Source: a virus. Taken from it: a stretch of DNA of 30,009 nucleotides. The stretch covers positions 1 to 30,009 of IMG/VR virus record IMGVR_UViG_3300032285_003249; one strand, 5' to 3'. Positions 2,552 to 27,932 of the stretch are shown in pieces (the stretch's first letter is position 1; each line of letters opens with the position of its first letter). Position numbers and translations under genes: made by a program. The notes beneath the pieces were generated by a model, which saw nothing but the letters and a program-made list of their open reading frames with translations, did not search any database and was not told the origin of the DNA.

Positions 2552-2568
2552 GGGGCTGTTTGATGCCC
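2552..2568 (-). other. small GC hairpin in the SSB leader
   Basis: On the minus strand GGGC and GCCC(C) flank an eight-base loop (ATCAAACA), giving a four to five base-pair stem. It sits just downstream of the predicted start of transcription and about ten bases upstream of the ribosome binding site. It is too short and lacks a T-tract for a terminator. A leader structure for translational control of the SSB is possible but unproven. Confidence 0.3.
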
Positions 2569-2577
2569 TGTTTCTTT

Positions 2578-2586
2578 ATTATATCA
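2578..2586 (-). promoter_or_regulatory. extended -10 promoter upstream of the SSB gene
   Basis: The minus strand reads TGATATAAT, a perfect extended -10 element. Its first three bases are the TGA stop codon of the primase gene. No good -35 box is present at 16-18 bases (best TTTTGA). Predicted transcription would start near 2571 and give a leader of about 40 bases before the SSB start, allowing extra SSB and polymerase expression independent of the upstream genes. Confidence 0.45.
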
Positions 2587-3546
2587 CAAAACAGCATACT
2601 CAAAATGCGGAATTGCATTTTTTATACATGTTTTTATTTCTTCATCAGTCATATCCCCAACATCTTTAGCATTGTGTGGATAAACAGTATTGTGGTCATA
2701 ACATGCCCACAAAACATTTTTACTCTTTAATTTATCAGCAATCTTATTGCCAAGTGCTCTGCCTGCAGAATCATTGTCTGTCATTATAATAACTGTAGAC
2801 GCATATCTATTTAAGTTCTGTATATTAATATCAGATATACTTCCACCTAATGTGGCTACAGCATTTGGAAATCCCGCCTGCCATAAACGAATAGCATCAA
2901 AGCTAGACTCAACAACAATAATTGTGCCACCTTCTCGCTTTGCTCTGTGTAAATTAAACAAAGTTTTATTGCGTGGAAGGTTTGGACTATTTTTAAAAGA
3001 CTTACCCTGTATAGATCTACCAATAACTCCCACCAATAACCCATCTGGTGAATGTAGCGGAACCATTGTCATTTGCTGAATAGAAGAAAATCCAAGTTGG
3101 AAATGTTCCATTGCTTCTTCATTAATACTTCTTGAAAGTAAATAATCTTTTGATCCATGCGAATTTGCCATTAAAAGCATATGTGCACCCTCAACTGTTT
3201 GAGTTGGAAAAGATGTAAACTCTGGCTTGTCATCTAAAAGTTCTTTTAGTTCTTCTTCAAGCTTTTCTGCATCAGTTAACTTATTTGCTGATATAAATCT
3301 TAATGCCTCAAAGCTGTTTCTCTGAGTAAGCTGCATAACTAGATCTAAAATTGTTCCAGAAGAATCGCATTGTTGATTGTAGCAAATATAAAGACCTTTA
3401 GAATAACTTACCGCAAAGGCTGGAGAATCTAGGTTACGATGAAATGGACATAAGCATAAGAAATCTGTGCCAGTTTCTGAAACTATTTCAACTCCACAGG
3501 AACGCAAAATAGAGCGGAGATCCGCTTTAGTATATGCATCTAACAT
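2584..3546 (-). CDS. DnaG-type DNA primase
   Basis: It synthesises RNA primers for lagging-strand replication. The 320 residues hold an N-terminal CHC2-type zinc-binding domain (C33-P-F-H36, then C55 and C60; the last pair is spaced by four residues instead of the usual two). A central linker with a typical primase catalytic-core start (YLLSRSINEEAMEHFQLG) follows. The TOPRIM domain has E213 in VVESSFDA and the metal-binding TDNDSAG (D257, D259). It is about half the length of bacterial DnaG (near 600) and ends soon after the TOPRIM fold, so the C-terminal helicase-binding domain is absent. The ATG is preceded by AAAGGATAAACA and starts three bases after the upstream gene ends. Bacterial-type DnaB and DnaE neighbours fit one replisome. 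Confidence 0.94.
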   Translation of the reverse strand: MLDAYTKADLRSILRSCGVEIVSETGTDFLCLCPFHRNLDSPAFAVSYSKGLYICYNQQCDSSGTILDLVMQLTQRNSFEALRFISANKLTDAEKLEEELKELLDDKPEFTSFPTQTVEGAHMLLMANSHGSKDYLLSRSINEEAMEHFQLGFSSIQQMTMVPLHSPDGLLVGVIGRSIQGKSFKNSPNLPRNKTLFNLHRAKREGGTIIVVESSFDAIRLWQAGFPNAVATLGGSISDINIQNLNRYASTVIIMTDNDSAGRALGNKIADKLKSKNVLWACYDHNTVYPHNAKDVGDMTDEEIKTCIKNAIPHFEYAVL

Positions 3547-3549
3547 TGT

Positions 3550-3831
3550 TTATCCTTTGGTTATGAGACTCTGACCTGAGAATCCTTCGTACATCTTCGA
3601 CTTAGCCTTTCCAAGATATATTCCGTACATCACTAAATTAAAAGTGTAGTGATCTTTCTCTTCATTATATTTTACATTAAACTGGGGCTGCATGTCAAGA
3701 ACTGGAACATAGCCTTTGTCTCGCATCTGCTGGACTAAAAGCCTTTCATAAGTTTCTCTTGAGCTCTGGAATTTAGAATCATCTTTAATAACTCCGCTGA
3801 TCCAGAAGTCATGTATCTTTCTTGGGTACAT
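3550..3831 (-). CDS. unknown 93-residue protein between helicase and primase
   Basis: I do not recognise this family. The protein starts MYPRKIHDFWISG and is basic at the N-terminus. A helical middle (RETYERLLVQQMRDKGYVP) is followed by a predicted beta sheet (FNVKYNEEKDHYTFNLVMYGIYLGK). No signal peptide, membrane segment or cysteine is present. The ATG has a good ribosome binding site (AGGGAG) and the stop lies three bases before the primase start, so the two are translated together. Position between DnaB and DnaG suggests a replication accessory role, for example a primase-helicase adaptor that could replace the domain missing from the short primase; this is inference only. Confidence 0.75.
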   Translation of the reverse strand: MYPRKIHDFWISGVIKDDSKFQSSRETYERLLVQQMRDKGYVPVLDMQPQFNVKYNEEKDHYTFNLVMYGIYLGKAKSKMYEGFSGQSLITKG

Positions 3832-3853
3832 GATCTCCCTATCTTTCCTGACA

Positions 3854-3862
3854 ATTATATCA
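3854..3862 (-). promoter_or_regulatory. extended -10 promoter before the 93-residue gene and primase
   Basis: The minus strand reads TGATATAAT in the 55-base gap between the helicase stop and the next start. It is identical to the motif before the SSB gene. No convincing -35 is visible. Transcription would begin near 3847, just ahead of the ribosome binding site at 3835-3840. Confidence 0.42.
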
Positions 3863-3886
3863 AGTTAGACAGACATTTCATAGTAT

Positions 3887-5113
3887 TTAGGAGATACCTG
3901 GATCATAAACTTCTTTGATAATTCCCCGATTTAGATCCCAATCCAAGAAGAAACCAAACTCAGTTCCATGACGATTCTTACGACTTACAACTTCAATGAT
4001 ATTAGTATCTGGAGTTCTATGAACTGCCATAGCCATATCAGCATCATACTCAATTGCCTTTGACCATGCAACTTGTGAAAGTAATGGCGGGGCATCTTGA
4101 TCTGAAATATCATCCATGGTTGCAGCAGTAATATCAATAATTGGAATATTATTTCTGACTGCTAATAATTTAAAGTCACGAGAAATGTTACGATTACGCT
4201 CTACTTCTGATTTAGCTCCAGATGAATCGTTAAACAATTGATGATAATCAAGAATAACAATATCGGGTTTATGTTGGTCAATCTTTGCTTGAACGGTATT
4301 AGGAGTAACTTGACCTGTACCTTCATTTGAGACTAAGATAAACTGATTCTTGTTGGCAAACTTTTTAGATCCCCAATCATCAAATGAGCTAATGTCTACT
4401 TGACCTCTTGAAAAGTCTGAGGCTTTAAACAATCCCGACCCAAGCATTGTATAGATACGATCACGCATATTTTCTGGAGTCATTTCAAGGGAGATAATCA
4501 TAGGCTTAAAACCCTGTTCCCAGGCCTTACAAGCCAGATAAGATGACATCCATGTTTTACCCCTGCCTGGCCATCCAATCATCACTATAAGGTGACCTGG
4601 AGCCATTCCAGTAGGGTATGCGTAGTCAATAGCCTTAAACCCAGTCATAATTCCTGGACTTCCACCCATAGCATCAGAACGATTTTTTACTGACTCAAAA
4701 TGTTGCTCAGCTAATTTATAGTCTGTTAAATCAACGTCACGAACATTGGCAGTAAGCTTTCCTAAAGATGTAAGCTCTGCTTGCATAGAAGCAATTACTC
4801 GACCAGATGCTTCTGTCTTTAAGCTTTGCCCTGAAGATAATAACAGGTTTCTAATTCTAGAAGCAAGATATTCATTCTTAAGTTGATCAAGGTAATATGC
4901 TGTTTCGCCCTTTACCTTTACTGGCTCAAAATCTTTAAATCTTTCTGTAAGAACTGAAATATCTGGAACAGCCTTAAACTTAAGATAGTAAGATTTTAGA
5001 CCTTCCCAAACATCTCTGTGAGACGTAAATACTTCATCAATGTTTTCTGCAAGAACTGTAGATATATCTTTGTTATTGCATATAGATGTTATTACGGCTG
5101 ATTCAGTATTCAT
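3887..5113 (-). CDS. DnaB-type replicative DNA helicase
   Basis: A hexameric RecA-fold helicase that unwinds DNA ahead of the fork. Of 408 residues, 1-120 form a helical N-terminal domain (ICNNKDISTVL, then a DISVL helix), shorter than in E. coli DnaB (471). The motor has a Walker A GWPGRGKT (180-187), the SLEM motif (208-211) typical of DnaB, Walker B DIVILDY (284-290, D289) and a C-terminal basic SRKNRHG loop (377-383) matching the DnaB arginine-finger region. The start overlaps the preceding stop by 11 bases (GAATACTGA) with AGAAAGAGA as ribosome binding site. DnaB, primase, SSB and polymerase in a row make a near-complete replisome. No DnaC-type AAA+ loader is present in the window. Confidence 0.95.
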   Translation of the reverse strand: MNTESAVITSICNNKDISTVLAENIDEVFTSHRDVWEGLKSYYLKFKAVPDISVLTERFKDFEPVKVKGETAYYLDQLKNEYLASRIRNLLLSSGQSLKTEASGRVIASMQAELTSLGKLTANVRDVDLTDYKLAEQHFESVKNRSDAMGGSPGIMTGFKAIDYAYPTGMAPGHLIVMIGWPGRGKTWMSSYLACKAWEQGFKPMIISLEMTPENMRDRIYTMLGSGLFKASDFSRGQVDISSFDDWGSKKFANKNQFILVSNEGTGQVTPNTVQAKIDQHKPDIVILDYHQLFNDSSGAKSEVERNRNISRDFKLLAVRNNIPIIDITAATMDDISDQDAPPLLSQVAWSKAIEYDADMAMAVHRTPDTNIIEVVSRKNRHGTEFGFFLDWDLNRGIIKEVYDPGIS

Positions 5114-7913: not shown

Positions 7914-8321
7914 TTAATCTTCAAGCGGATCTCCATCTGTATGAATAAGAATATCCTTTTGGGATACCTCTATTATACTAGAGTTTAGCCAAATAAGCAC
8001 GTCTGGATTAACAATATGTCTTTTTTTAGAATCACTAATTAAATATATTTTGCCATCTGATATATCTTTAGCTACTGTGCCATCCCTTAAGCCTAGGGTT
8101 CCCATTATTGGGAATCCCGTCAATCTTGATTCAAGAGTTTTTACAATAGGTAAGTTCCATGTCTGCATTGATCTTTCAGATACAAACTTGAATCTTTTTT
8201 TACCCTTAATATAAAAAAAACCTTTTTCAGTTTCAGCAATTAATCCGCTTGGAACGTCTGGATTAAAAATTTTAGGCAATGGTTGCGGAGATTTTTTCTT
8301 CAATACTTTGAGAATATTCAT
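7914..8321 (-). CDS. unknown tail-associated protein with two KKR-type repeats
   Basis: 135 residues from the ATG at 8321 (a TTG at 8342 would add seven residues but overlap the previous gene by 71 bases). It contains two copies of a beta motif: GFFYIKGKKRFKFVSERSMQTW (34-55) and GKIYLISDSKKRHIVNPDVLIW (90-111). The pattern G-x-hydrophobic-Y-L/I-x-KKR-x-I-x-N-P occurs as a repeated unit in cell-surface and phage proteins, from memory. Between them is a GTLGLRDGTVAKDISD linker. No signal peptide or membrane segment. Its place at the end of the tail operon suggests a fibre-tip or virion protein; function unknown. Confidence 0.72.
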   Translation of the reverse strand: MNILKVLKKKSPQPLPKIFNPDVPSGLIAETEKGFFYIKGKKRFKFVSERSMQTWNLPIVKTLESRLTGFPIMGTLGLRDGTVAKDISDGKIYLISDSKKRHIVNPDVLIWLNSSIIEVSQKDILIHTDGDPLED

Positions 8322-8919: not shown

Positions 8920-11900
8920 TTATACCCATCCTGACCATGTTCCATAGTATATGGTACCATTTGTACCCATCATTTGCACTCTTGCACGTCCGTATCTTGC
9001 TGATGCACTGTATGTAATGTCACCCTGAGCAGTTCCCATTGCAAAAGCCCAAATGCTTCCATTTGCAGAATACGGATAAGTTCCAGCTCCTGGATATGAT
9101 CTAGTTCCGCTAGCCAGTAGTGTGCCTCCTCCTGCTGTTGTTCTTATTTCAAAATCCATTCCAATAATATACGATACGCTGCCAGAAGGGGTTGGATAAT
9201 CACAATACCACTTTAATGTATTTGCTTGGTATGCTCTTGGCTGGAAAGCTAATGAAGGAGCAATACATGTTGGTGTTACAAATGTAACTGCCCATTGTGC
9301 ATACAAAGTCATATCTGATGTAGGAGTAATAAGGTCAGATGATGCATATGACGTTCCAGAACCATTTGCAGCAGTATTCCAGCTACTAAATGAGTAACCA
9401 CTTCTTGTTGGTACAGTAGAAGTTACATTTCCAGTTCCGCCTCGCAATATGCTGGTGCTTGATCCGCTATATGTTCCTCCATTAGCATTATAAGAAATTG
9501 TCCAATATGTTGCAGCAATTGGTCCTATTGAATTTGTTGTTACAACTTGAGATCCTGATGAGTTTGTCCAAGTTACTACTGCTCTTATACTATATCCTGC
9601 GTCATAATTTCCAAGTAGATAGGTACTTCCATTAGTTTGTCTTGTAGCATAAGTATTTCCTCCAGTACCTCCGTCGTTTCTTTGCCACACCCATGAAGAA
9701 GTTGGCGATGGAACTCCATAAGCATCATTTATACTTATAGAAAGATTATTTCCCATTGTTGCAACTCCACTAATAGATGCTGATCCACCATATGGGGCAA
9801 CAGGCGTTAATGTCCACTGTGCATATAAAGTAATATCTGATGTAGGAACATAAGTAGAACCGCTAGTTACAATTTGTCTTCCACCACTTGCAGAATCATA
9901 CCAGCCATTAAAAGTATATCCCGATAGCGTTGGCAATGGTGCATTAACACTTCCGCCTTGCGTTGTTTGTTGCGAACTAGATGGCGAAACAGATCCTCCA
10001 TTTGCATTCCATGTGACAGTATATAATTTATAAGGAGACAATGTTGTAGTAATTTGTGTTCCAGCATAAAGATCTGTATTGTAAGGAATTCCTGTTAATG
10101 TATAAGTTGATCCAGGAGTAAGTCCAGATATAGAAATTGTTCCAGATGATGCATAGGATGATGCGTAGTAAACAGAGTTATATGTTGCTCCAGTGGGTGA
10201 CACAGAAATATCTAACTCACCACCATTTGTCAATGTATATGGAATAGATGCCGTTGTATTTCCATTTGTAACGGTTCCAAAAGTTGCTGATGCTTCTCCA
10301 TATAGAGAATGTGTTGCAACTGATGTTCCAGATCCAGAAATGTTTGTGGCTGTAACTATAAAACGTAAAATTCCTGGATTAGTAACTGTTGGTGGTATAA
10401 AAAGAGGAACTGATGAATAAAATGGGTAAGGTAAATTTATTCCTTCACTATATGAAGTTCCTGCTACTGCTCCACTACTTGAAGTACTTGAAACATTTAT
10501 TAGAGAAAAGAAAAAGGTATCTGTTGGACTTACTAATTTCCAATACACTCCAGCACTTGGTGTTACATCTCCTAAATCTGACCAATAAATATATCCGTTT
10601 GCTCCTGTTGGAGAATGATTAAGGTTGTTGTTTGTATTTGATGAGTACAAATGATTAGCGTAAATTACAGTATTTCCAGAACTATAGCTTGTTGTCGAAG
10701 ACCAACCATTTCCATTATATGCAGTAGTGCAATAATACCTATATGTACTGGTAACATTTGCTCCAACAGAATAGCTTGTTGAATAAGAAAAAGCAGTTGG
10801 AGCAGATAAATTTATAGCAGGTTGATAAATTGCACCTTGATATGTAAGGTAACCAGAATTTGCTGTATACACTGTTGTATAGGAATACGATGCAATAGTA
10901 CTTAAATCTATATATATCTGATCTCTATATATACCAGTTATGTTCCAAGTTCCATTAAATAAGCTATCTACACCAGCTACCGATAAACTTCCTCCCGCCC
11001 TATATCCTCCAGGAGTTCGAGTTGTTAGCACTCCAGTGGTTCCATATAATTGCTTATTTGTAATAAATGCAGTTCCCGAAGGGTTAACTATTTGACTGTA
11101 GCCAGTTCCATTATAATATTGCCAAACATAACTATAAGTTGTATCGTTAGCATTAACATAATCCCATGTTCCAAAAGTTCCATATGTTGTTTTTGAAACA
11201 GTTGTTGGAGATAAAATGCTTGCAGAAACTGTTGGTGATGGAAGTGTATTTACAATTGGTCCCACTCCAGTATTAGTTGGAGGATCGGCATATGTTGATC
11301 CTATATAAGCATTTGAATAAAGCCTTATATATCCATTTAATGTGGGAGTATAAACCAAACTATTACTAACATTATAAATATAAGATGCTGATGGAATTGT
11401 AAAATAATGATTTTGTGCTTGTAAAGTATCTACCCCACTAGAAAGTGGTATTCCAGAACTATTGTACATTGTCTTAAAATTAGCAGGGACATTATCAGGA
11501 GAATATTGCCATACCCAATACACCCCGTCTGGTGTAGTAGAAAATGTTCCTGTATTTCCTAAAAGTTGGTATCCTGCCCCTAGATATTGGCCATCTAATA
11601 TAGTTGTTGGTTGTGTTGATATAGTTAGAGCTTGAATTACTGATGAAGACATCGTTGCAGTTCCGCTTGAAGTTCCATTATCACTTAAATCATAAGCTAT
11701 TGTATATGCACTATAAGTTTTACCTACATCTGTGCTATCAAAATAAAGTGTATAAGTGCTTCCTTTATTATCTGTTGGCGTTGCCCCAACGTATTTAACT
11801 TTTGAACTAAATGTTGTATCATTTAAAACAACTGTACCATCACTTCTTGTTATGTATGTTCTTGTATAGCTAGAATTTGCAACCGTACCTATAGTATAAG

Positions 11901-12504
11901 TAGCACTTGAATTTGAAAAATATGGGCCAGATGACCACGTTCCAGTTGAGATAGTTACTGTAGGGCCATATATTGCAACATATCCGTTTCCATTATTATT
12001 ATTATTACTTGTTTCTGTTGTTACACCATTACTGTCTGTTGCAGTAATATTAAATGTAAAATATGTAGGGTTAGCAACAAAATCTCTTGGGTACTGTAAA
12101 GTATAATCGCTTGGAGAATTACCTCCTGAAGCTATTGTTGGATTTGAAATTGTTCCTGTTCCGCCAGTGCCTGTTAAATTTGAATACGAACCGTTTAGAC
12201 TTTTAGATTTTTGAAAACTATAGTTTAAAGTTAAAGAACCATTATAACTCCAATTATAGTTATAGCCAGTAAGTTTAGGATATGCAGTTCCAGATGATGG
12301 GTATTGCAATTTATCTGCTGTTATTGCAAGAGGCGTTGAAAGTGTGGGGCCAGCTTTTGGCCAAAATTGAGACCATCCTCCACTTACATTTTTAATAAAA
12401 GCTTTTTGTACAGCTTTCCAATCTCCAGTTGTTGAAGTTTTAACAAAAAATTTTGTAATAGTTTTCCATGAACCAGTTGAGGATGTTTTAACATAGAATG
12501 GCAT
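8920..12504 (-). CDS. large tail fibre with carbohydrate-binding and InlB-type repeats
   Basis: A 1194-residue fibre likely to contact the host surface. Residues 3-48 hold three copies of a short unit (YVKTSSTGSWK, FVKTSTTGDWK, FIKNVSGGWSQ), the (Y/F)VKxxxTGxWK motif found at the N-terminus of many phage tail proteins. The middle is Ser/Thr/Gly/Tyr-rich beta, with Ig-like stretches. At about 600-645 there is a CBM5/12-like motif (GWSSTTSYSSGNTVIYANHLY, then a distal P and W), preceded by a weaker copy. Two InlB/Listeria-Bacteroides repeats lie near 824-900 and 996-1074 (WNANGG...GYTFNGWY...ITLYAQW). The gene starts right after the preceding stop (TAA ATG). The C-terminus is Gly/Tyr/Trp-rich with no known enzyme motif. 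Confidence 0.88.
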   Translation of the reverse strand: MPFYVKTSSTGSWKTITKFFVKTSTTGDWKAVQKAFIKNVSGGWSQFWPKAGPTLSTPLAITADKLQYPSSGTAYPKLTGYNYNWSYNGSLTLNYSFQKSKSLNGSYSNLTGTGGTGTISNPTIASGGNSPSDYTLQYPRDFVANPTYFTFNITATDSNGVTTETSNNNNNGNGYVAIYGPTVTISTGTWSSGPYFSNSSATYTIGTVANSSYTRTYITRSDGTVVLNDTTFSSKVKYVGATPTDNKGSTYTLYFDSTDVGKTYSAYTIAYDLSDNGTSSGTATMSSSVIQALTISTQPTTILDGQYLGAGYQLLGNTGTFSTTPDGVYWVWQYSPDNVPANFKTMYNSSGIPLSSGVDTLQAQNHYFTIPSASYIYNVSNSLVYTPTLNGYIRLYSNAYIGSTYADPPTNTGVGPIVNTLPSPTVSASILSPTTVSKTTYGTFGTWDYVNANDTTYSYVWQYYNGTGYSQIVNPSGTAFITNKQLYGTTGVLTTRTPGGYRAGGSLSVAGVDSLFNGTWNITGIYRDQIYIDLSTIASYSYTTVYTANSGYLTYQGAIYQPAINLSAPTAFSYSTSYSVGANVTSTYRYYCTTAYNGNGWSSTTSYSSGNTVIYANHLYSSNTNNNLNHSPTGANGYIYWSDLGDVTPSAGVYWKLVSPTDTFFFSLINVSSTSSSGAVAGTSYSEGINLPYPFYSSVPLFIPPTVTNPGILRFIVTATNISGSGTSVATHSLYGEASATFGTVTNGNTTASIPYTLTNGGELDISVSPTGATYNSVYYASSYASSGTISISGLTPGSTYTLTGIPYNTDLYAGTQITTTLSPYKLYTVTWNANGGSVSPSSSQQTTQGGSVNAPLPTLSGYTFNGWYDSASGGRQIVTSGSTYVPTSDITLYAQWTLTPVAPYGGSASISGVATMGNNLSISINDAYGVPSPTSSWVWQRNDGGTGGNTYATRQTNGSTYLLGNYDAGYSIRAVVTWTNSSGSQVVTTNSIGPIAATYWTISYNANGGTYSGSSTSILRGGTGNVTSTVPTRSGYSFSSWNTAANGSGTSYASSDLITPTSDMTLYAQWAVTFVTPTCIAPSLAFQPRAYQANTLKWYCDYPTPSGSVSYIIGMDFEIRTTAGGGTLLASGTRSYPGAGTYPYSANGSIWAFAMGTAQGDITYSASARYGRARVQMMGTNGTIYYGTWSGWV

Positions 12505-15500
12505 TTAAAATGACACCCACAAATCTCCTACATAACCTGAGCTTGCTCCAGGAACTGATGTTGATGTACTTAAATTTTGATAATATACTGCCATGCCTAA
12601 TTGTAAAACTCCAGTTGATGGATTTTCAACAACCATTCTTTGTCTTGGTAAACGTCCCATAGAAGAAATTCCAAGATAATGCCCACCGCTTCCTGCATCT
12701 GTCATATCAATATTTCCTTGAATAGGAACTCCTTTAATTAAAGTTCCATATGTTGGATCTAAGGATATTCTGGAGAAACTTGAATAACCAGTTGCTGTAT
12801 CACCTGTTGGCAAATTTGTATTATCTACAATAGATCTTGATGCAGATGCTTGCAATGTAATTGGGTTTAACGAACCATTGTATTGAATATAAGATGATGC
12901 ACTTCCTGCAATAAATGAACCATCTGATGAAGTAAAGTAATATCCGTTATTTGAAGTGTCTGTAGATGAAGTTCTATCTGCACTCTTTAAAATTCCAGTA
13001 ATTGTTGCACCTGTTGCTGTAAGAGATCCTGTTGTATCTACATAAAAATTAGCAGCAGATTTTGAAGATCCAGCCCAAAACACTTTATCTCCTGCTGCTG
13101 ATGGTACGCTCATCCCTACAGTATAGTTAGTGTTAGTACCAACTATTCCAGACATTACTATTCCAGCGTTTGTTCCAGAAGTTAGTGTTATTTGTTTGCT
13201 TTTATCTGATGTTATTACTCCATCATTAACAATCCATCCACCAATTATTGCACCCTTTGTAAAGAAGTTAATTCCATTGTAAAGTGTTGGCATTGAAATT
13301 GTATTTCCACCTGGAGTTGTTTGTGTATCTCCTATTGGCGTTGTAAGTATTTCTGTTACAGAATTATTATTTCCAGTTGATGCGGATGAATATGCTGCAA
13401 AACCTTTATAATTCATTACAGTTCTTGCACCAGATGTTGGTGATGCACCACCATATATAGATCCGTAAGTTGTATTATCTGTCCATAACTGAATATTTGA
13501 TTTAAATGTTGAATCTCCAGTTACAGATAATGTACCCGTAATTTGTGCACCATCTGCATACATTTTACCCAAAGATGTTACGTGAAACCCTGATGTTAGA
13601 TTTGATGATGTTGCACCTATATCTAAAGCACCACCAGTAATTTGTACAGCTGAAGCATATACTTTTCCTGTACGATCTACTGCAAATTGATTTGTATCTC
13701 CACCAGATACTGAACTTCCCGCCCAGAAAGCATATGTTCCACTTGGAGAAAGACCCGCATATTTTGTTGATGATAATTTTTCAATCTTTGCAGAGGTTAT
13801 ATCCCATCCAGCTATAGAGCCATAGTTAGCTGATATTCCACCAGTTGTTGTATCCATAGAAACTTGGTTGGTGCCTTTTCTTATGAGCAAGCCACCGCTA
13901 TTTAATATAAACCCATCACCAGTTAAATTTCCAGGATTGGTTGTAACATCTCCGCTATATATAGATGCTCCTGATGCAGTTAATGCAACATTTCCCTGAA
14001 ATGATCCACCTCTTGCAGATATATTTCCATCAATTGTAAAACTTGATCCATCCCATAATAAATAATTACTTGTGTCTCCACCAACTTTTAATCTTGCAGA
14101 ATTTGTAGATGTTATATACCAATAATTACTTGAGTCAAAATATAAACCTTTATCCGTAGATGTATTTACGCCATATCCAAACTTAAAGTTACCAGCTGAT
14201 ATGTAATTGGTTATTGCGGGGGTTCCAGAAATTGCAACATCTGTAAAAGCTGTAAATGCTGTAGATAGATTATTATATTGATCATATGTTGCTACAGCTA
14301 ATTTATATGTAGCACCTACCGCAAGTCCCGTCAACTTATAAGATAGAGTTCCTGTTGGCGGATTTGATTGATCAATTGGATAATCAACATAAGAATAAAC
14401 TGGACTTAAGGCATCTGTTGTAAATCTAATTCTATATCCACGCAATTGTGAATCTGTAACAGCAGGCCATGAAAGATTTATATATCCATTAAAACCTAAT
14501 GTACCACTTGAATCAATACCGCTTGTAGTTGACAATCCAGTACTTGAAACATTTGGTGGTCCAATAACATCTGCTGTTACTGGTTGATATGGAATAACAA
14601 TTTGTTCTGCAGACACCGCAGATCCATTATCAAAGTCATCATAATAGCGAACCAAAATATATGTATTTTGATATAAAGTTGATGGGATGTTAGCTGGACC
14701 CGTACCAGCATAAACAAGTCCTTGTGCTGAATATGTGCCTGAAGCTTGTGCAGTTAAGTTATTACTTAATGTTATTGTATTTCCATTTACAGATAAAATA
14801 TAAGTGTTTGCTGGAATTCCAGTTCCAGTTATAATATACCCCGTAGGTATTGGTGATAAGGTAGCATTATGATTATCTTTTACATTTGTTAAAGTTATTG
14901 TTGCTGTACCACTGGTACCACCTGATGAGTAACTTCCTGTAAAAGAATCTACTGGTGATGTTATACCAGACCAACTTGTATACTTTTGATAAACTTCTCC
15001 AAATGTAGCATATGATGGTAAGCTAAATGTTGCTGAATATCCATTAACAATTCCAGTTAAAGTAAATGTAGGTACAAGTAAACTGCCATTAATAAGAAAT
15101 GGATTTGCTCTTTGTGCAACAGAAAATGATACTCCATGAGGATCTTTAATTCCAAGTGCGGAAAAGCTGGTAAGTAAAGCAGATGGGAATGATGAATAAT
15201 ATCTTCCAAATTGTGAGAAGATGTCTGCTTTTCTAATTGTTGCTGTTTGATTTAAATTAGATGTTCCATCTGGATAAATATAAAAATATCCATTAACTCC
15301 AGTAGTAGGTGTTAATGCTACCTGAAAATATGATCCAGCCAAAGTTGTTGGTAGTGTGTATGATATAACGATATCATTACCACTCCATACTGCAGATACA
15401 GCAGTTACAGCATTTGGAGGTGTTGTATTTACTGCAACTGTTGCAGTTGGTGTTACATATACTGCCGTACAATATTCTCCATATGTTCCTGCCTTGTCTG

Positions 15501-16308
15501 TAAACCTAGCTTTTACCCATCTTCCTTCTGTTGTAGATGCTATAACAATTGCTGGATTAACACTATCTAAATAAACTTGAGTATAATCTCCTGTTGGTAT
15601 ATTAACATTATCTGTAGATATATATTCTTCAATAGATATAAAATTAAAAGTTGTATCTGTTATTGGAGTCCAGGCAACTGAATATCCTTGGTTTATTGTT
15701 GTTACTGTAATTACTGGTATTGGTAAAGAGTTTTTGTATAAAGGTGACACATGGCTACATGATCCACCAAAATTGTTAAGAGAGTCTGATGCTTTGATAA
15801 CTATAGAATCAAATTTTTGCTGAAAAAACCCAAAAAGATATGCATTAGTATCATAATTTAAATCATAAAATTGACTTGTACTTGCTTTATTTATTGGTGC
15901 ATAAACTGTTTTAGTTACGCTTCCTACAGTAAAAGTTATTACAAATTCAAAAACATATGCATTAGCAACATTTGTTGAATCAAAATTCCATGTAATATGT
16001 AATGTTGACCCCACCCACGTTGATGCACATCCGCTTACACCTGTTGGCGTTGATGATGTACCTGGACCTGGAATGGGTGTTGGAGTAGGAGTTGTATCTT
16101 TAGTATCTGGATCTGGCAAACCACTAAATGCAGCAATGTTTGCTCCAGCTAAACCAACTAAACCAGATTTATCAACAATCATAATTTCGGCATTACTTCT
16201 TGATAACGTTTTGCCTATGTTTGCTGGAAGTAAGCGTGGATCATTTTTATCAATAAAAAGCGTTGGCTTTTTAGGGGCTTTATTACTGCCTTCTGGTGTA
16301 GCTTTCAT
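12505..16308 (-). CDS. large tail fibre/tip protein with Fn3-like domains and repeated tail modules
   Basis: 1267 residues. An N-terminal head (1-65, AEIMIVDKSGLVGLAGANIA) is joined by a Thr-Pro hinge (DTTPTPTPIPGPG) to several Fn3/Ig-like beta domains to about residue 700. One has the VTGTGIP-type unit (GYIITGTGIPANTYILSVNG). The C-terminal half is a chain of tail modules where GW(D)I, YAFWAGSS, F-x-VDxTGxxxA and ITG recur (near 862 and 1076), seen in siphovirus tail-tip and receptor-binding proteins. It probably forms a long fibre or the tip. The ATG is behind GGGGGG. Low-complexity Ser/Thr/Gly content makes it evolve quickly, so exact receptor is unknown. Confidence 0.88.
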   Translation of the reverse strand: MKATPEGSNKAPKKPTLFIDKNDPRLLPANIGKTLSRSNAEIMIVDKSGLVGLAGANIAAFSGLPDPDTKDTTPTPTPIPGPGTSSTPTGVSGCASTWVGSTLHITWNFDSTNVANAYVFEFVITFTVGSVTKTVYAPINKASTSQFYDLNYDTNAYLFGFFQQKFDSIVIKASDSLNNFGGSCSHVSPLYKNSLPIPVITVTTINQGYSVAWTPITDTTFNFISIEEYISTDNVNIPTGDYTQVYLDSVNPAIVIASTTEGRWVKARFTDKAGTYGEYCTAVYVTPTATVAVNTTPPNAVTAVSAVWSGNDIVISYTLPTTLAGSYFQVALTPTTGVNGYFYIYPDGTSNLNQTATIRKADIFSQFGRYYSSFPSALLTSFSALGIKDPHGVSFSVAQRANPFLINGSLLVPTFTLTGIVNGYSATFSLPSYATFGEVYQKYTSWSGITSPVDSFTGSYSSGGTSGTATITLTNVKDNHNATLSPIPTGYIITGTGIPANTYILSVNGNTITLSNNLTAQASGTYSAQGLVYAGTGPANIPSTLYQNTYILVRYYDDFDNGSAVSAEQIVIPYQPVTADVIGPPNVSSTGLSTTSGIDSSGTLGFNGYINLSWPAVTDSQLRGYRIRFTTDALSPVYSYVDYPIDQSNPPTGTLSYKLTGLAVGATYKLAVATYDQYNNLSTAFTAFTDVAISGTPAITNYISAGNFKFGYGVNTSTDKGLYFDSSNYWYITSTNSARLKVGGDTSNYLLWDGSSFTIDGNISARGGSFQGNVALTASGASIYSGDVTTNPGNLTGDGFILNSGGLLIRKGTNQVSMDTTTGGISANYGSIAGWDITSAKIEKLSSTKYAGLSPSGTYAFWAGSSVSGGDTNQFAVDRTGKVYASAVQITGGALDIGATSSNLTSGFHVTSLGKMYADGAQITGTLSVTGDSTFKSNIQLWTDNTTYGSIYGGASPTSGARTVMNYKGFAAYSSASTGNNNSVTEILTTPIGDTQTTPGGNTISMPTLYNGINFFTKGAIIGGWIVNDGVITSDKSKQITLTSGTNAGIVMSGIVGTNTNYTVGMSVPSAAGDKVFWAGSSKSAANFYVDTTGSLTATGATITGILKSADRTSSTDTSNNGYYFTSSDGSFIAGSASSYIQYNGSLNPITLQASASRSIVDNTNLPTGDTATGYSSFSRISLDPTYGTLIKGVPIQGNIDMTDAGSGGHYLGISSMGRLPRQRMVVENPSTGVLQLGMAVYYQNLSTSTSVPGASSGYVGDLWVSF

Positions 16309-20948: not shown

Positions 20949-21445
20949 TAAATCTCCGTAAATTCTATTTTAAGGTCTACGTAATCGTAACCATTTCTTC
21001 TTTTTGTAATATTATATGTAAATGTGGTCATGTAAGCAACAAATATTTGACCATTAGTTGCCTTAGAATCAACATAGTTTCCATCTGGCACACTATTTTT
21101 AACAGCACCTTGTTGTGCAAATATAAGCTTTAAGTATACTGGTTGAAAAGCATTACCCTCATAAAAAGCTTTAATCCATGCCCCAGCTTTAGATTCAGAA
21201 GAATAATCAACTAAATTAGAATCAAGAGTTGGAAAATCTTTCCAATCAGCGGTAATAACAAATTTTCTTGCAACTATATACTTGCGAAGTGTTCCGTTAG
21301 CCATTCTATCTGTTGCTTCAATAAGGTTATATGTAATGTTAATTGGTTGACGATTATGATCAGAAAGCTTGTACCAAGTTCCCGACCCAGTTGATGAGTT
21401 ATAATCTAATGATACTTGAACTCCTTGAGGAATTTGATATGTCAT
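20948..21445 (-). CDS. distal tail (Dit-like) protein candidate, 165 residues
   Basis: Located between the tape measure and the hub, the standard place of the distal tail protein that joins the tail tube to the tip. Beta-rich: GVQVSLDYNSSTGSGTWYKL, NITYNLIEATDRMANGTLRK, VDLKIEFTEI. The YIVARKFVITADWKDFP strand pair and final FTYNITKRRNGYDYVDLKIE fit a tail-tube-like fold. No enzymatic motif. It starts with ATGA overlap to the tape measure stop. The identity rests on position and fold impression; a minor tail protein is an alternative. Confidence 0.68.
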   Translation of the reverse strand: MTYQIPQGVQVSLDYNSSTGSGTWYKLSDHNRQPINITYNLIEATDRMANGTLRKYIVARKFVITADWKDFPTLDSNLVDYSSESKAGAWIKAFYEGNAFQPVYLKLIFAQQGAVKNSVPDGNYVDSKATNGQIFVAYMTTFTYNITKRRNGYDYVDLKIEFTEI

Positions 21446-24400
21446 CTAGCCACCGCCACTGTTTTTCCATTAGTTTGTTTTTTAGCTGCATGAATTCCTG
21501 ATATAGTGCCAGCTTGTGCTTGCTTTGCAACTGCTGTTGCAATTTGTTGAGGACTTTCAAGACTGCTAATTGTAATATTATTCTGCACACTAATTGTACC
21601 AGTTCCTGTTGCATCCGCTGCAATTCTTTTTTCTCCAGCAATTTTTGAAATTGAAGCATCAATCTTTTTTGAACCGTTAGCTATTGCATCATTAAGGTCT
21701 GCAAGTGCTATGGCAAACCTGTCACCTTGGGTTTGTACTTTATCAATTGCTTTTTGCATCTTGTATTCTTTAGTTCCTGCGTTAAAATCAACTGTTAAAG
21801 CAGTAGATGCTTGTTTAAATTCTGCAGCACCTAAATAATTTCCAGACATCAGGGCTGTTTTTTGATCTTGTAGCAAACTAAATCTTTGTTGTTCATAATC
21901 AGACAAACGCTTTGCTTCAGCAACTTGTTCTTTGTAGTTTTTAAGTTGATCATTAAGTCCTTTAAGGACAACGTTTTCATCTTTAACTCTTGCTTCAAGA
22001 AGTTTCTTTAAAGCTTTTTGAGCTGTGGTTCCAGAGAATACCGTAGCACTTGCATATGGATCAGGATTTTGTTTTCCATTTCCAGAGTTACTTCCGTTGC
22101 TGTCGGGTTTTTTGCCCAATAGCTTATTAATTTCATCATTTAACAATTTCATATCTGCAGCAAGTTTTGCTGCACCATTTGGATCTTTTGCATCTTTCAT
22201 GATTTGAGCAAGTATTGGAGAATTTCCTTTTGTTGCTGTATAAAGAGTTAAATATTTAATTCCATCTGCAAGATTTATATTTAATCCAGCAAGCTGAAGT
22301 GCTGCATTTTTTGTTGGTGCTTCTGCTTTACTTGTTAAGGCAGAAGCATATGCAGCAAGTCCATTTTTATTTACAACAGTGTTTTCTGTAATTGCTGCAA
22401 TTTTATCTGCATAATCCTTAGCACTAATAGATGCTTTTTCCATAGGATTAACAATTTCTTTTAATGTTTTGCCAAGTTGTTGTTGATTTCCTACGGCTGC
22501 TTTTGATTGTAATGCTTTTATATTATTTTCTGCAATAGTATGTGCAGTACCTGCATAAGCAGGATCATTCAATATTGATTGTTGTATCTGAAGAGCTTGC
22601 TGTTCTCTATAAGACAAACCTGTTTTACCTTGTGCATTTTTAATTGCTGCTGCAGTTGCAGACTTAACTGAAGTTGCTCCTGTTGCTGTTGGGGTTCCAA
22701 CGGCACTTGCGTGTCCTGTCGAAGCTAGATAAAGATCAATCATTTGCTGTGCTTTTGTTGGATCTAAGTTACCTACAGCTACCTGTGTGTCTGCAAATGC
22801 TTTAGCAATTGCTGCAGCTTTGCTATCACTTGTATTTTTCATTTGATCAAATATTAAAGACATAGCATTATCTTTTGGAAGCTTTGCTATAGCATCAGAA
22901 AAATTCTTTGCTTGAGATTTAATTGCATCCATTTTTGGAAGTGCTGCAGCAGTAATTTTATCTAGATTAATTACTGGGGTTGTTGTGTCTTGTACTACTC
23001 CATTAAACATTTGTGCTGCATCTGAACTTGATTTAAATGTTGCTTGAGCATTTGCAGCATGCATTTTTTCCATGTCCATAAGCTTTTTGATTCCGCCAAA
23101 TAGACCTCCAAATGCTGCACCAACTAAAGCACCTTCTGGTCCTAGGAACGAACCAAAGCTTGCACCTTGAATTGCATCATTAGCAATATTTCCACCTGGA
23201 AGTTTATCAATCATTGGTCCAGCAAATTGTGAAGCAATTTGTAAACCAATACCCATTCCTAATCCGCTAAATCTTCCAGTCATAAATCCAGGAAGTTTCG
23301 ATCTTACTCTCATTCTTGCTGCTCTAATTTTTGCAAATCTTCCAGACTGTGTTGCTGCTAGACCTGGCGTTGTTTCTGTTGCAAGTGCTGTTTCATCCAT
23401 TCCAGATGCAACTGGTCCCGCATTTGAAGCAAGTAAAGCTTCTTCAAATGCTATGTTTGCAGCATTTTTAACTCTAGGCTTTCCTTCTTTAATTCCTTCT
23501 ATTGCACCATCAACCATATTTTTAGCTGCACGTTTTGTTGCTCTTGATGGAGATTGAGACTGAGATGCTTGATCTAAAGCAATACCTAACTCTTCTTCTC
23601 TTGCTTTATTTAATGCTGATTTATACTTTGGATTTGTTGAAGCATAGGCATTTTTATTTCTATCTTTAATTCTATTTGGATCTGACCCGCCATATTCTCC
23701 AACTTGTGCATCACCGTACATGAGCTGACCATAAGTCTCATAACTGCTTCTTGTGCCAGCTCTTCTTCTTACAGTACCCTTTTCAATTTCTGCTTGCATT
23801 CTTTCTTTTTCAAGAAATACTCTGCTACCACCAAAAGTCGAACCTGCTTTATCTAAAGTTTCGGCAACCCTTGCAGATGCTCCTCCAAGTTTTTTAAAAC
23901 GTTGTATAACGTCTCTTGTTACCTGATCCATTTCTTCATCACCCAATGGTCCAGAGATTCTTGCTAACGCCTGTGCTCTTCTTCTTACTTGATTTTGCAA
24001 ATCTGTTAAAGCTTTTCTAGTTGCTGGATCCTGAAGTTCTTGTTCGGTTAAACCACCTTTACCTGCTGCTTCTCCAAATGCAAGCGGATGTGTTAATCCA
24101 GTTCTAATGTCTTCCTCTGTTGCACTGCTATCTCTTAACTTTGCATTAAGCGAATGTGGCATTCTTGCAGTAAGGTTAGACATAATTCTAACTTCTGCAC
24201 CTTCAACATTTTCTTTGAATCTGGCTATGTCTGGGTTGTTTGCCATAAATTCATCATAAATTTTATCGCCTGACTTAAAGTTTGAACGCATGTGACCTAA
24301 CACAGTTTTTTCAGTACCATCTTCATAACCTGGCAAATTACCATTTAACATTCCATTAATAAATGGTGCATATTGTTTTGCTACAACTGTAGGAATAACT

Positions 24401-26442
24401 GCTTCCCCGCCCATTAACATAGCAGGATAAGCATCTCCTTCAGAAGGATTTCCTGGAACCCATCCACCTGTTGCCATTTTTGGAGCCTTAAATGGAATTG
24501 ATAACGCAGCTCTTTCAATAAATGAAGTTGTACTTGCAGTATTCATTGCTACTGACATTGCTTCAATATTCATGGTTAAAGTTCTTACAGCAGAATTTAA
24601 TATGGCTGTAGACTCTGCATCTGTAAGCATTTTTTTGCTAAACAGTTCTGCTGCATTTTGAGAAGCAATCATCTCTGGAGTAAATAATTGGCCAAATGTT
24701 TTTGTACCATTTAAAAGATCTTTCATGGCAAAAAGACCTTTGAGCAAATATCCTACAAAGTTTGCAAGCACACCAGTAAACATAATGACTGGTCCAGATA
24801 ATGCTATACCGCCTGCAATAATGCCTAACACAGTTTTTACTGGTCCTGGCAATCCACTAAATACATGTGCAACACTATTTCCAAAATTTAAAAGACTAGT
24901 TGCAATTTCCATTACTTTTTGACCTAGCGGAATTAAATCTGCTTTGACTGTTTCTACAGCTCTTTTAAATCTACCCGTTGTAGACTCGGTAGCAATTTTC
25001 ATTTCAGAAGAAGCAATGCTAGAAAGTTGACTATCGCTTGCACTCATAAGATCAAAAGCAGTTTTTGTTTGACTGTTTACTGCACCTAAGTTTGTAATAA
25101 GTGCTTGAATTCTTGCTTCCTGAAACTTACCAAAAAGCTTTTCAATTAATTGTGCTTGTGCTAGTGGGGCTAATCCCTTTAATGCTTGTTGAAGCATCAT
25201 AATCATTTCTACTGGATTACCCTTGGTCTTTGTTGAAATGCTTCCAAGATCAATATTATAAGCAGCGAAGGCGTCCCTTGCTGCTTTTGTTGGGTTGATT
25301 AAAGATGCTATAGCAGATTTAATTGCGTTAGCTGATTGAGCTGCTGGAATTCCAGCTTCTTTCATAGCCACCATCATTACAGCAGTATCTTTAAATGACC
25401 CGCCTAACTGTTTAACAATTGGACCTACACGAGGAATACCATCAACTAAATCTTGAAGACTTGTTGATGTTTGGTTTTCAACTGCGTTAAGGAAGTTAAC
25501 TGCACCAGATAGATCCTGTGTGCTCAGCTTATAGACATTTTGTAATGACACAGTTGCTTTCATTGCAGCTTGTGTATCAAGCTCACCTAACTTAGAAAGA
25601 CGCATTGCTTCTCTTGTTGCTACAATAAGATCGTTTCCAGTTTTACCTGTCGCAGCTAAATCGGCAGCCATTGCTGCAGTATCTTTTGCTGCTATACCCA
25701 TACTTGATGCAAGCTCTCTAGATAGGCCGAGAACCTGTGACTTAATTGAATCAAGAACTGCTTGTGTTGGCTGAGATAATCCTGTTCCATAAACTTTTTG
25801 AAGTCTAACAAGTTCATCATTTACTTGTTGGAATGTCTGCATCGCTGTATTACCAAATATTGTAAGGGGTACTGTCATACCAACTGTTAATTGACGACCC
25901 GCCCACTGAGTATTTTTACCCCAGTTAATTAAAGATTGTGTTCCTTTGTCAACTGCAAGATTATATATGTTCTGCATATTTGCAGCAATTTTTGTAGCAT
26001 TAGCTACTTGATTAATCTTGGTAGGAGTATATACAGACATGACCCCTTGTTTTGTAGGGTCTGATTGAACTATGGAATTTTGTAACTTTGTTTGTTCTAA
26101 CGCAAGTGCCCGCATCTGTGCGGATGCGTTAGATGTTCCATTCTTAATTATACTAAAGTACTCGGTGAGCTTTAATTTACCAGTTACAAGAGACTGTCCA
26201 AATTTATCTGTTTCTGCAGTAAGCTTTACTGTATTGGCAGTAAATTGTCCAGTGGAAAGCATTGTTGCTTTAAATGCATCATTTGCTTCTTTTAACTGTT
26301 TTGAAAGGTTGTTATTAGAACTTAATCCAATACCTGCAAGGCTTTTATTTAAAAGATCAACTTGAGCTTTTAACTTGCCTATTTCTGTATTAACGGATTT
26401 AAAATCGCCAAGGGCAACTATATTAAGTTCTATTTTAGCCAT
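21442..26442 (-). CDS. tail tape measure protein, TP901-type core
   Basis: It sets tail length and is ejected with the DNA. 1666 residues with the TP901/PhageMin_Tail core around 195-410 (QTFQQVNDELVRLQKVYG, SRELASSMGIAAKDTAAMAA, LSKLGELDTQAAMKATVSLQ, GAVNFLNAVENQTSTSL, GIPRVGPIVKQLGGS). A hydrophobic segment (TVLGIIAGGIALSGPVIMFT, around 534-560) may enter the membrane. GGWVPGNPSEGDAYPAMLMG with GEAVIP (about 656) is a common tape measure motif. A second hydrophobic glycine-rich part is near 1040-1110, and long coiled coils follow to about 1600. At roughly 1.5 Angstrom per residue the tail would be near 250 nm. ATG behind GGGGGGA. Confidence 0.95.
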   Translation of the reverse strand: MAKIELNIVALGDFKSVNTEIGKLKAQVDLLNKSLAGIGLSSNNNLSKQLKEANDAFKATMLSTGQFTANTVKLTAETDKFGQSLVTGKLKLTEYFSIIKNGTSNASAQMRALALEQTKLQNSIVQSDPTKQGVMSVYTPTKINQVANATKIAANMQNIYNLAVDKGTQSLINWGKNTQWAGRQLTVGMTVPLTIFGNTAMQTFQQVNDELVRLQKVYGTGLSQPTQAVLDSIKSQVLGLSRELASSMGIAAKDTAAMAADLAATGKTGNDLIVATREAMRLSKLGELDTQAAMKATVSLQNVYKLSTQDLSGAVNFLNAVENQTSTSLQDLVDGIPRVGPIVKQLGGSFKDTAVMMVAMKEAGIPAAQSANAIKSAIASLINPTKAARDAFAAYNIDLGSISTKTKGNPVEMIMMLQQALKGLAPLAQAQLIEKLFGKFQEARIQALITNLGAVNSQTKTAFDLMSASDSQLSSIASSEMKIATESTTGRFKRAVETVKADLIPLGQKVMEIATSLLNFGNSVAHVFSGLPGPVKTVLGIIAGGIALSGPVIMFTGVLANFVGYLLKGLFAMKDLLNGTKTFGQLFTPEMIASQNAAELFSKKMLTDAESTAILNSAVRTLTMNIEAMSVAMNTASTTSFIERAALSIPFKAPKMATGGWVPGNPSEGDAYPAMLMGGEAVIPTVVAKQYAPFINGMLNGNLPGYEDGTEKTVLGHMRSNFKSGDKIYDEFMANNPDIARFKENVEGAEVRIMSNLTARMPHSLNAKLRDSSATEEDIRTGLTHPLAFGEAAGKGGLTEQELQDPATRKALTDLQNQVRRRAQALARISGPLGDEEMDQVTRDVIQRFKKLGGASARVAETLDKAGSTFGGSRVFLEKERMQAEIEKGTVRRRAGTRSSYETYGQLMYGDAQVGEYGGSDPNRIKDRNKNAYASTNPKYKSALNKAREEELGIALDQASQSQSPSRATKRAAKNMVDGAIEGIKEGKPRVKNAANIAFEEALLASNAGPVASGMDETALATETTPGLAATQSGRFAKIRAARMRVRSKLPGFMTGRFSGLGMGIGLQIASQFAGPMIDKLPGGNIANDAIQGASFGSFLGPEGALVGAAFGGLFGGIKKLMDMEKMHAANAQATFKSSSDAAQMFNGVVQDTTTPVINLDKITAAALPKMDAIKSQAKNFSDAIAKLPKDNAMSLIFDQMKNTSDSKAAAIAKAFADTQVAVGNLDPTKAQQMIDLYLASTGHASAVGTPTATGATSVKSATAAAIKNAQGKTGLSYREQQALQIQQSILNDPAYAGTAHTIAENNIKALQSKAAVGNQQQLGKTLKEIVNPMEKASISAKDYADKIAAITENTVVNKNGLAAYASALTSKAEAPTKNAALQLAGLNINLADGIKYLTLYTATKGNSPILAQIMKDAKDPNGAAKLAADMKLLNDEINKLLGKKPDSNGSNSGNGKQNPDPYASATVFSGTTAQKALKKLLEARVKDENVVLKGLNDQLKNYKEQVAEAKRLSDYEQQRFSLLQDQKTALMSGNYLGAAEFKQASTALTVDFNAGTKEYKMQKAIDKVQTQGDRFAIALADLNDAIANGSKKIDASISKIAGEKRIAADATGTGTISVQNNITISSLESPQQIATAVAKQAQAGTISGIHAAKKQTNGKTVAVAR

Positions 26443-26445
26443 TCA

Positions 26446-26769
26446 TCATCCCCCCAATTCAATGTAGCCTAGGCCTTCATTGATACCGAATCCTTCTTGC
26501 TGAGCAGCGTAACCTTGATTAACAAGAATATCGCTAGTTCTTTCAACGGTTTCAGATTCTTGATCATCAACATCTAAGCCGTTCATTTTTGCAAGAAACA
26601 TCTTATCATCATAATCTTTTTTTCTAGTGAACTCTATGAGTGCCATAAGTTCATCTAGAGAAAGATTACTTTCTAACTCATCAAAGTTTTTCCAATGACC
26701 GAGCAAGAAAATTTCAGACTCTAAGGAGCGTAGGTCTAGTTCGTCCCAGCTAGAGCCGCTCCCAGAAGG
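26446..26769 (-). CDS. tail assembly chaperone T region, made by -1 frameshift (G-T fusion)
   Basis: This frame is read only after a -1 shift from the G gene. It opens 9-12 bases upstream of the slippery site behind a TGA and runs to the TGA at 26446-26448, giving 107 residues (PSGSGSSWDELDLRSLESEI, then FLLGHWKNFDELES). The fusion is G residues 1-100 plus these, 207 in all. It folds as helices with an acidic end (GLDVDDQESETVERTSDILV). The only upstream start in frame is a TTG at 26706 with no ribosome binding site, so separate translation is unlikely. G-T chaperones hold the tape measure and recruit tube subunits during tail assembly. Confidence 0.88.
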   Translation of the reverse strand, partial: PSGSGSSWDELDLRSLESEIFLLGHWKNFDELESNLSLDELMALIEFTRKKDYDDKMFLAKMNGLDVDDQESETVERTSDILVNQGYAAQQEGFGINEGLGYIELGG

Positions 26770-27068
26770 TTTGGGTCGTCAAATTTTAACCCTCCAGCAA
26801 TTTCAAGAATCTTCATCATGGTTGGAACTTCTATAACTTCTTCAAACTTATCTCTATCAGCCAACTCTGGCTTTAATACTTCTAAACAGACTATTGCTGC
26901 TTTGATGAAAATTTCCATCATATCATATTCTGTTGATGCTTTTTCTGTATCTGTACTATTAATGATTTCCATAAACTTTCTCATCTGCTTAATAGTCAGT
27001 GGTTTTAAGGTGATTGTTTCACCGTTTGATAATTCAATTTCTACAATGTCATATACTGTTGTTGGCAA
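26736..27068 (-). CDS. tail assembly chaperone G
   Basis: 110 residues, directly upstream of the tape measure and after the tail tube gene, the classic position of lambda G. Beta strands (VYDIVEIELSNGETITLKPL) are followed by helices (KQMRKFMEIINST, YDMMEIFIKAAIVCLEVL, TMMKILEIAGGLKF). The start is TTG, supported by AGGAAAAGGAGC, with AAGGAG eight bases away (27077-27082). The end (CCAAACCTT, residues 99-101) carries the frameshift site that makes the longer fusion; unshifted ribosomes stop at TAG 26736-26738. Expected to be produced in excess over the fusion. Confidence 0.88.
   Translation of the reverse strand: MPTTVYDIVEIELSNGETITLKPLTIKQMRKFMEIINSTDTEKASTEYDMMEIFIKAAIVCLEVLKPELADRDKFEEVIEVPTMMKILEIAGGLKFDDPNLLGAALAGTN
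26769..26775 (-). promoter_or_regulatory. -1 programmed frameshift slippery site CCCAAAC
   Basis: In the G frame the codons are C CCA AAC, an exact X XXY YYZ heptamer, where both tRNAs can re-pair after slipping one base back. The -1 frame has a TGA just upstream and the 0 frame a TAG 33 bases downstream, so the switch must occur in this short window, and the heptamer is the only candidate. GC-rich sequence follows (CTTCTGGGAGCGGCTCTAGC), which could form a stimulatory stem. Confidence 0.9.
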
Positions 27069-27076
27069 GTTAATGC

Positions 27077-27082
27077 TCCTTT
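27077..27082 (-). promoter_or_regulatory. ribosome binding site that fixes the TTG start of G
   Basis: AAGGAG on the minus strand eight bases before the TTG at 27068. It is the best Shine-Dalgarno nearby and no ATG is in frame close to it, so TTG is the start. Confidence 0.8.
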
Positions 27083-27093: not shown

Positions 27094-27121
27094 ATTATAC
27101 CAATATTATACGCATAAACAA
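27094..27121 (-). promoter_or_regulatory. promoter between the tail tube and chaperone genes
   Basis: TTGTTT (27116-27121), a 16-base spacer and TATAAT (27094-27099), with an extended TG one base upstream of the -10 (TTGGTATAAT). It lies directly after the terminator-like hairpin and before the G gene, so it would restart transcription of the chaperones and tape measure. Confidence 0.55.
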
Positions 27122-27122: not shown

Positions 27123-27156
27123 TTCAAGACCCCGCCATTTCTGACGGGGGCTTGAA
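27123..27156 (-). terminator. terminator-like hairpin after the tail tube gene
   Basis: TTCAAG and CTTGAA enclose CCCCCGTC and GGCGGGGT with a loop of AGAAAT. The stem is about 14 pairs with one mismatch and one G-T, rich in G+C in an otherwise AT-rich genome. On the minus strand it is followed by AATTTGTTT, a partial T-tract. It would end or reduce transcription past the highly expressed tail tube gene. Confidence 0.72.
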
Positions 27157-27188: not shown

Positions 27189-27932
27189 TTAGATAGTTCC
27201 CCAAACACGATCAATAACGATACCGTATTCAGTTCCAGCATACTCAGTTTGTGAGTCATCTGGTAAGCAACGGAAATTCACTGGGAATACTGTTGCTGCA
27301 TCACGCTTTAATCCGTGCATTGTTGTATCAATGTTAACAACACGACGTGCAACATAAACACGCTCTTTTTGCTTCAAATCTGAAGTATGAAGAGGTGTAA
27401 CTGCTGCTGCAGAAGCTGGATCATAAGAAGAACCAATCTGACGTGGAGCAGATCCAACTGCAAGAAGAACACGCTCAACTGGTGTATCACCAACAGCACC
27501 TGCTGCTAGATTGAGTGTGGACTTGTATGTTGAAGATGTTCCTGTATTTGTCAATGTGTAGACTGGAGATCCGTTTGCATCTGTGTAGAAATCTGATTGA
27601 CCCCATGAAAGAGTCAAGTTTTCTAGAGTTGCTTCAACGAGTTCTGTCTTTAGAACAACCTTAAGAGTCTGCTTGAATAGACGAGCAGCGTCAAGAAGTT
27701 GATCAACCATAACCTCACCATAATTTGGTTCGTATGAAATCTCAATACCTGTTGATGTAAATCCTACTTCACGATAATCAGATCCTGCATTGATCTGAGC
27801 ACGAGCAGATGAACCTGCTGTGAGAAGACTTGCGATGTCTGTTGCCTTTGTAGTTGGGCGGTTTGCACCATTCTTATTCGAAATGAATAGATTAGCGGAA
27901 CCGACAATAACGTTTCTAGTACTTGTAGCCAT
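27189..27932 (-). CDS. major tail tube protein
   Basis: It polymerises into the tail tube and is one of the most abundant virion proteins. 247 residues in the place expected between the tail terminator and the chaperones. The N-terminus (STRNVIVGSANLFIS) and the EVGFTSTGIEISYEPNYGEV strand, then QLLDAARLFKQTLKVVLKTE, fit the tail tube families of long-tailed phages. The sequence has a stretch typical of a surface loop (YTDANGSPVYTLTNTGTSST). ATG is preceded by AAGGTGGTGA. It is flanked by an inverted repeat/promoter-like region before and a terminator after, consistent with a separate strong transcript. Confidence 0.88.
   Translation of the reverse strand: MATSTRNVIVGSANLFISNKNGANRPTTKATDIASLLTAGSSARAQINAGSDYREVGFTSTGIEISYEPNYGEVMVDQLLDAARLFKQTLKVVLKTELVEATLENLTLSWGQSDFYTDANGSPVYTLTNTGTSSTYKSTLNLAAGAVGDTPVERVLLAVGSAPRQIGSSYDPASAAAVTPLHTSDLKQKERVYVARRVVNIDTTMHGLKRDAATVFPVNFRCLPDDSQTEYAGTEYGIVIDRVWGTI

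Follow-up and report, generated by a model that had tools for sequence, protein, structure and literature searches.

A −1 frameshift site with a conserved downstream hairpin, predicted to join two tail assembly chaperones of an uncultivated siphovirus, and a related lineage with two genes

Gene order and reading frames at the chaperone locus

The window analysed here, 30 kb (30,009 nt) long, was recorded from an uncultivated virus. On its minus strand, an overlapping pair of open reading frames (ORFs), G and T, sits between the genes of the major tail protein (MTP) and the tape measure protein (TMP), in the order MTP–G–T–TMP:

27189..27932 (−): major tail protein, 247 aa, assigned by position and by matches to PHROG 2175 (Ig domain) and, weakly, PHROG 885 (major tail protein)
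27076..27082 (−): Shine-Dalgarno site of G, AAAGGAG, 7 nt 5′ of the TTG start
26736..27068 (−): G, ORF of the short tail assembly chaperone, 110 aa, with its TTG start at 27068; matches PHROG 10504 (E=1e-26)
26779..26781 (−): TGA shutting the −1 frame 5′ of the slip site
26769..26775 (−): slippery heptamer CCCAAAC, which the G frame divides as C CCA AAC
26736..26738 (−): TAG ending the 0 frame; it falls within the 3′ arm of the inner hairpin stem (see below)
26446..26769 (−): T, the −1-frame extension of G (108 codons, stop codon counted); matches PHROG 10474 (E=2e-13)
21442..26442 (−): tape measure protein, 1666 aa; PHROG 10030 (E=1e-115) and PF10145 (E=3e-33)

The original prediction, that a −1 frameshift links two tail chaperones here, rested on a heptamer read in frame as C CCA AAC, a TGA closing the −1 frame upstream and a TAG closing the 0 frame downstream, and it gave as products a 110-residue G starting with TTG and a 207-residue fusion. 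The heptamer was indeed found in that register at 26775..26769 (−), both stops were located by position, and both products follow from the ORFs. The TAG starts 30 nt past the heptamer and finishes at 33, the T frame is open from the upstream TGA to the TGA at 26448..26446, and the tape measure gene begins 3 nt past the end of T. A slip by −1 yields a 207-aa fusion whose junction reads ...FDDPN followed by PSGSGSSWDELDL. The further claim that only this short stretch can carry the shift holds in the window but not in its relatives, where the open overlap ranges from 43 to ~109 nt and the site is unchanged.

The functional assignment is carried by position and conservation more than by fold. G matched a tail assembly chaperone family only weakly (phrog_344, E=0.002), its matches in a viral library include a protein named tail assembly chaperone (E=5e-7), and its relatives in Streptomyces phages carry that annotation. 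The best PDB match of the predicted G fold was the HK97 tail assembly chaperone 2ob9, at weak scores (E=0.2, TM 0.44, mean pLDDT 71). The model of the fused GT was of low confidence and had no PDB match, and neither G nor T had a real match in Pfam or NCBIfam.

Elsewhere in the window, the strand that carries the tail genes also holds replication genes, at 1–5113 (−). They encode a DNA polymerase (phrog_405, truncated at the window boundary), a single-strand binding protein, a primase and a DnaB-like helicase. Downstream of the tail genes, two large proteins of 1194 and 1267 aa are encoded at 8920–16308 (−); they had no PHROG match at E≤0.001 and are perhaps tail fibre or minor tail proteins.

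Conservation of the slip site and of a downstream hairpin

CCCAAAC occurs five times in the whole window versus 2.65 expected, and an in-frame X XXY YYZ stands at 0.7% of codon positions in the other genes of the window. By chance, a 13-codon overlap in this genome would carry any such in-frame heptamer in ~9% of cases; a single heptamer is therefore weak, merely suggestive evidence, and its significance comes from conservation across relatives. Each of the 81 relatives collected first has T in the −1 register relative to G, and 79 of them carry an in-frame CCCAAAC or CCCAAAT at this position. A wider search gave 103 distinct frameshift-type sites, every one with T in the −1 frame and 99 with CCCAAAC or CCCAAAT at the slip point, and the −1 arrangement was kept in relatives down to ~40% identity. 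The genome-collection search returned one match only, L314 (CAINGU010000031.1), a 110-kb contig in a ‘cyanobacterium' metagenome-assembled genome that harbours the same chaperone cassette; this is perhaps a phage contig, and the host link is putative.

Four of the 103 sites are exceptions. L058 and L060, near-identical contigs from different samples, read C TCA AAC at ~8297–8303 with frames and hairpin kept; this sequence should slip poorly, which counts against the frameshift explanation. Streptomyces phages Coruscant (L083:6282–6340) and Karimac (L086:3288–3350) have T in the −1 frame and CCCGGAA instead, and neither has a canonical heptamer, which also counts against it. L308 (5258–5280), considered as a second CTCAAAC case, was rejected, as that motif is overlapped by AAACCCA, a canonical heptamer. 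In L307 (5270–5290), the 0-frame stop lies only 3 nt past CCCAAAC.

Past the heptamer, a two-part hairpin that was absent from the original prediction can be drawn:

26724..26763 (−): likely stimulatory RNA stem-loop, beginning 5 nt past the heptamer
26763..26758 paired with 26729..26724 (−): outer stem
26754..26748 paired with 26741..26735 (−): inner stem, with one C-A mismatch in the window

The outer stem (GGGAGC with GCTCC(T/C)) encloses the inner stem (TCTAGTT/AACTAGA). The outer or downstream stem was present in 81 of 83 distinct sites. When the overlap was held fixed and the subsequent T codons were recoded synonymously, with the codon usage of one relative, 71 of the 83 natural sequences exceeded 95% of their recodings in stability (median z −3.0). 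Moreover, the two arms co-vary: among 37 distinct arm pairs, none of 5000 shuffles matched as well, and in a covariance-model alignment of 46 sites the covariation score was reached by none of 500 shuffles, shared ancestry being not fully removed in either test; the best slid structure in that alignment had about half the score of the real one. An RNA structure with covariation is thus present at the distance from the heptamer expected of a frameshift stimulator (~5–9 nt), and the hairpin, which begins 5 nt past the heptamer in the window, is probably the stimulator of the shift.

It could be argued that the frameshift is real but that slippage is low and depends on the heptamer only, the hairpin being conserved merely through double-coding constraint, as its 5′ arm and inner stem fall almost wholly within the overlap, where few silent changes are possible. 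The outer 3′ arm is the part that argues against this, since it lies past the 0-frame stop and codes for T only, yet it uses rare codons (CGC for Arg and TCC for Ser, at 0% and 5% in the tape measure gene of one relative) and has changed jointly with the 5′ arm in several lineages (GGGAGC/GCTCC, GGTGGC/GCCACC, AGCGGC/GTCGCT and GGGCAGC/GCTGCCC). Constraint as the whole explanation was accordingly considered unlikely, and a stimulatory hairpin is preferred.

Several analyses bound this reading. Recoding the four Streptomyces phages synonymously, on the basis of their own codon usage, gave no significant result, and the hairpin is not clearly kept there; it is therefore claimed for the clade of the window only. 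For the closest set (A1) by itself, column-wise pair counts failed to convince, being uninformative because these sequences hardly vary and the register of some lineages is shifted by at least one base. An RNAalifold fold of the full 88 nt including the heptamer was unrelated and weak, and was counted against the hairpin; in that fold, no constraint kept the heptamer and spacer, both of which lie within the ribosome, from pairing. The alignment from a first covariance-model search was discarded, as it included two-gene loci (below) that matched weakly via conserved T coding sequence.

Slippage of RNA polymerase rather than of the ribosome is a further conceivable source of the fusion, and mixed frames do arise in this way at some phage and insertion-sequence sites. 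However, CCCAAAC holds no homopolymer run as long as is normally needed, and a downstream RNA hairpin suits ribosomal slippage; a transcriptional origin is thus highly improbable, and ribosomal slippage is retained as the reading.

A related lineage with two genes and no frameshift

Among relatives at 35–40% identity, a lineage was found in which G and T lie in one frame. In 61 loci (~40 distinct; for example L101:3563–4640, L089, L100, L119, L142 and L304), a single ORF covers both PHROG 10504 (G) and PHROG 10474 (T). In the 17 loci fully read, this fused GT measures 228–241 aa, and a solo G of 104–113 aa starts 38–62 nt past it. The second G was absent in two loci only, both ending near a contig edge. 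A major tail protein gene lies upstream in all 61 and a tape measure gene downstream in 58; in the examples shown, these proteins are ~30–37% identical to those of the window. An unbroken GT ORF and a separate G between the same neighbours lend independent support to G and GT as products, and the continuous ORFs support the fusion as a real protein design. Together with location, direction and conservation of the site, they support the frameshift that had been proposed to join the two chaperones.

These loci also bear on whether T might be a separate protein, made from a start codon within the T frame, such as TTG 26706, or through reinitiation after termination at the G stop, with no fusion at all. 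Several Streptomyces phage records do give T its own CDS. However, the first possible ATG, GTG or TTG in the T frame of the window is TTG 26706, inside the conserved T domain; no Shine-Dalgarno site was found at this codon, and conserved T residues precede it, which upholds the earlier claim that the downstream frame has no start with a ribosome binding site. Across the distinct frameshift-type sites, the first possible T start has a median Shine-Dalgarno energy of −2.4 kcal mol−1 and leaves a median of 82 residues that lack the start of the conserved T domain. An independent start for T is thus absent, as in a G/GT cassette. A separate T would also leave the conserved heptamer and the co-varying hairpin without a role and is at odds with the unbroken G-T ORF of the related clade, so that it was judged very unlikely and the fusion by ribosomal frameshifting is preferred.

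The two arrangements differ in their initiation signals. Between the MTP gene and G of the window lie, in this order:

27130..27149 (−): hairpin resembling a terminator, downstream of the MTP gene
27094..27099 (−): −10 box TATAAT, extended as TGGTATAAT, probable promoter of the G–T–tape measure block

A −10 box lies 23–28 nt 5′ of the start of frameshift-type G in 46 of the 47 relatives with a good match, and the Shine-Dalgarno pairing of this G is −8.4 kcal mol−1. The GT of the two-gene type, in contrast, has almost no Shine-Dalgarno pairing (median −2.9 kcal mol−1), and its −10 box ends 5–7 nt before the ATG in 24 of the 38 loci with a good −10 match. For example, at L101:3530–3565 and L089:4255–4288 the box follows immediately on the terminator-like hairpin behind the MTP gene and ends 5–6 nt before the GT ATG, with no Shine-Dalgarno site. 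On these sequence signals, a −10 box close to the ATG and a missing Shine-Dalgarno site, the GT mRNA is probably leaderless. A strong Shine-Dalgarno site (−10.7) precedes the solo G, as does a −10 box of its own, mostly 25–28 nt upstream.

In the tree of T, the two-gene type forms one group (support 99/96), which the frameshifting L307 and L308 adjoin with weak support (90/73); the frameshifting Streptomyces phages lie further out, and the root is not independently fixed. In the tree of G, the solo copies form one group with L307 and L308 beside them; for the two-gene clade, full monophyly of its two G copies was neither rejected nor established (p-AU 0.295). The simplest reading of these trees, with the root not independently fixed, is that frameshifting was lost once, after duplication of G. 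It is likely, on this evidence, that duplication replaced the frameshift by a low-level, leaderless, continuous GT and a second G with a strong Shine-Dalgarno site, transcription and initiation then setting the G:GT ratio. No paper describing such a replacement in siphoviruses was found in a literature search that was thin on subscription journals.

Proposed mechanism and comparison with known systems

The locus is very probably a siphovirus G/GT cassette, kin to that of the Stanwilliamsviridae Streptomyces phages, in which a hairpin-aided −1 slip at C CCA AAC produces a 207-residue GT. As predicted from these signals, the promoter in the MTP–G interval would drive G, T and the tape measure gene. 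The majority of ribosomes would finish G, stopping at TAG 26738, while a minority would pause at C CCA AAC, held by the hairpin 5 nt downstream, and slip back one base, Pro-tRNA and Asn-tRNA re-pairing on CCC AAA, before reading on into T to give GT. The efficiency of this slip would set the ratio of G to GT. By analogy with lambda, G may coat the tape measure protein and the scarcer GT may recruit the tail tube protein.

The slip itself was to be expected; it is the comparative set that counts. It offers more than 80 distinct natural variants of a single frameshift element whose hairpin co-varies, two of them having lost the canonical heptamer, and a related clade that reaches the same two proteins without frameshifting. 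With two natural solutions in otherwise matching gene blocks, why phages keep the frameshift and which G:GT ratio they need become testable. For annotation, T of the frameshift type should be given as a joined CDS, and GT and solo G of the other type as two genes.

The nearest relatives among annotated phages are the Streptomyces phages Francob, Blueeyedbeauty, Coruscant and Karimac (Stanwilliamsviridae and allies), at ~41–44% identity over most of the fusion. They share the gene order and the −1 frame of T with the window, from which Francob and Blueeyedbeauty differ in having CCCAAAT at the slip point. Three of the four records are classed as Stanwilliamsviridae; in the remaining one, that of Francob, T is entered as a joined CDS.

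T4-like phages, as described in the account cited in PMC10885494 (Vladimirov 2022), have separate genes for a short and a long chaperone. The two-gene lineage resembles them, to the extent of that account, in pairing one short-form gene with one long, fused-form gene without a frameshift; it differs in being of the tape-measure siphovirus type and in its leaderless-looking GT gene. The window, unlike T4-like phages, frameshifts.

The two lambda chaperones, at a G:GT ratio of ~30:1, bind the tape measure protein and bring in the tube protein, and mature virions contain neither (PMC5009743); a search of purified virions would therefore probably be negative even if the frameshift is real. As far as the lambda work is summarized in that review (Levin 1993; Xu 2004, reviewed in PMC5009743), the window shares with it a location flanked by the MTP and TMP genes, the short and long chaperone, the −1 slip near the end of G and a T without its own start. 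No sequence similarity to lambda G or T was demonstrated, and the window differs further in its conserved stem-loop 5 nt downstream. The lambda slippery heptamer is GGGAAAG, which CCCAAAC replaces in the window. With these differences, the site of the window joins the known lambda-type class of G/GT frameshifts.
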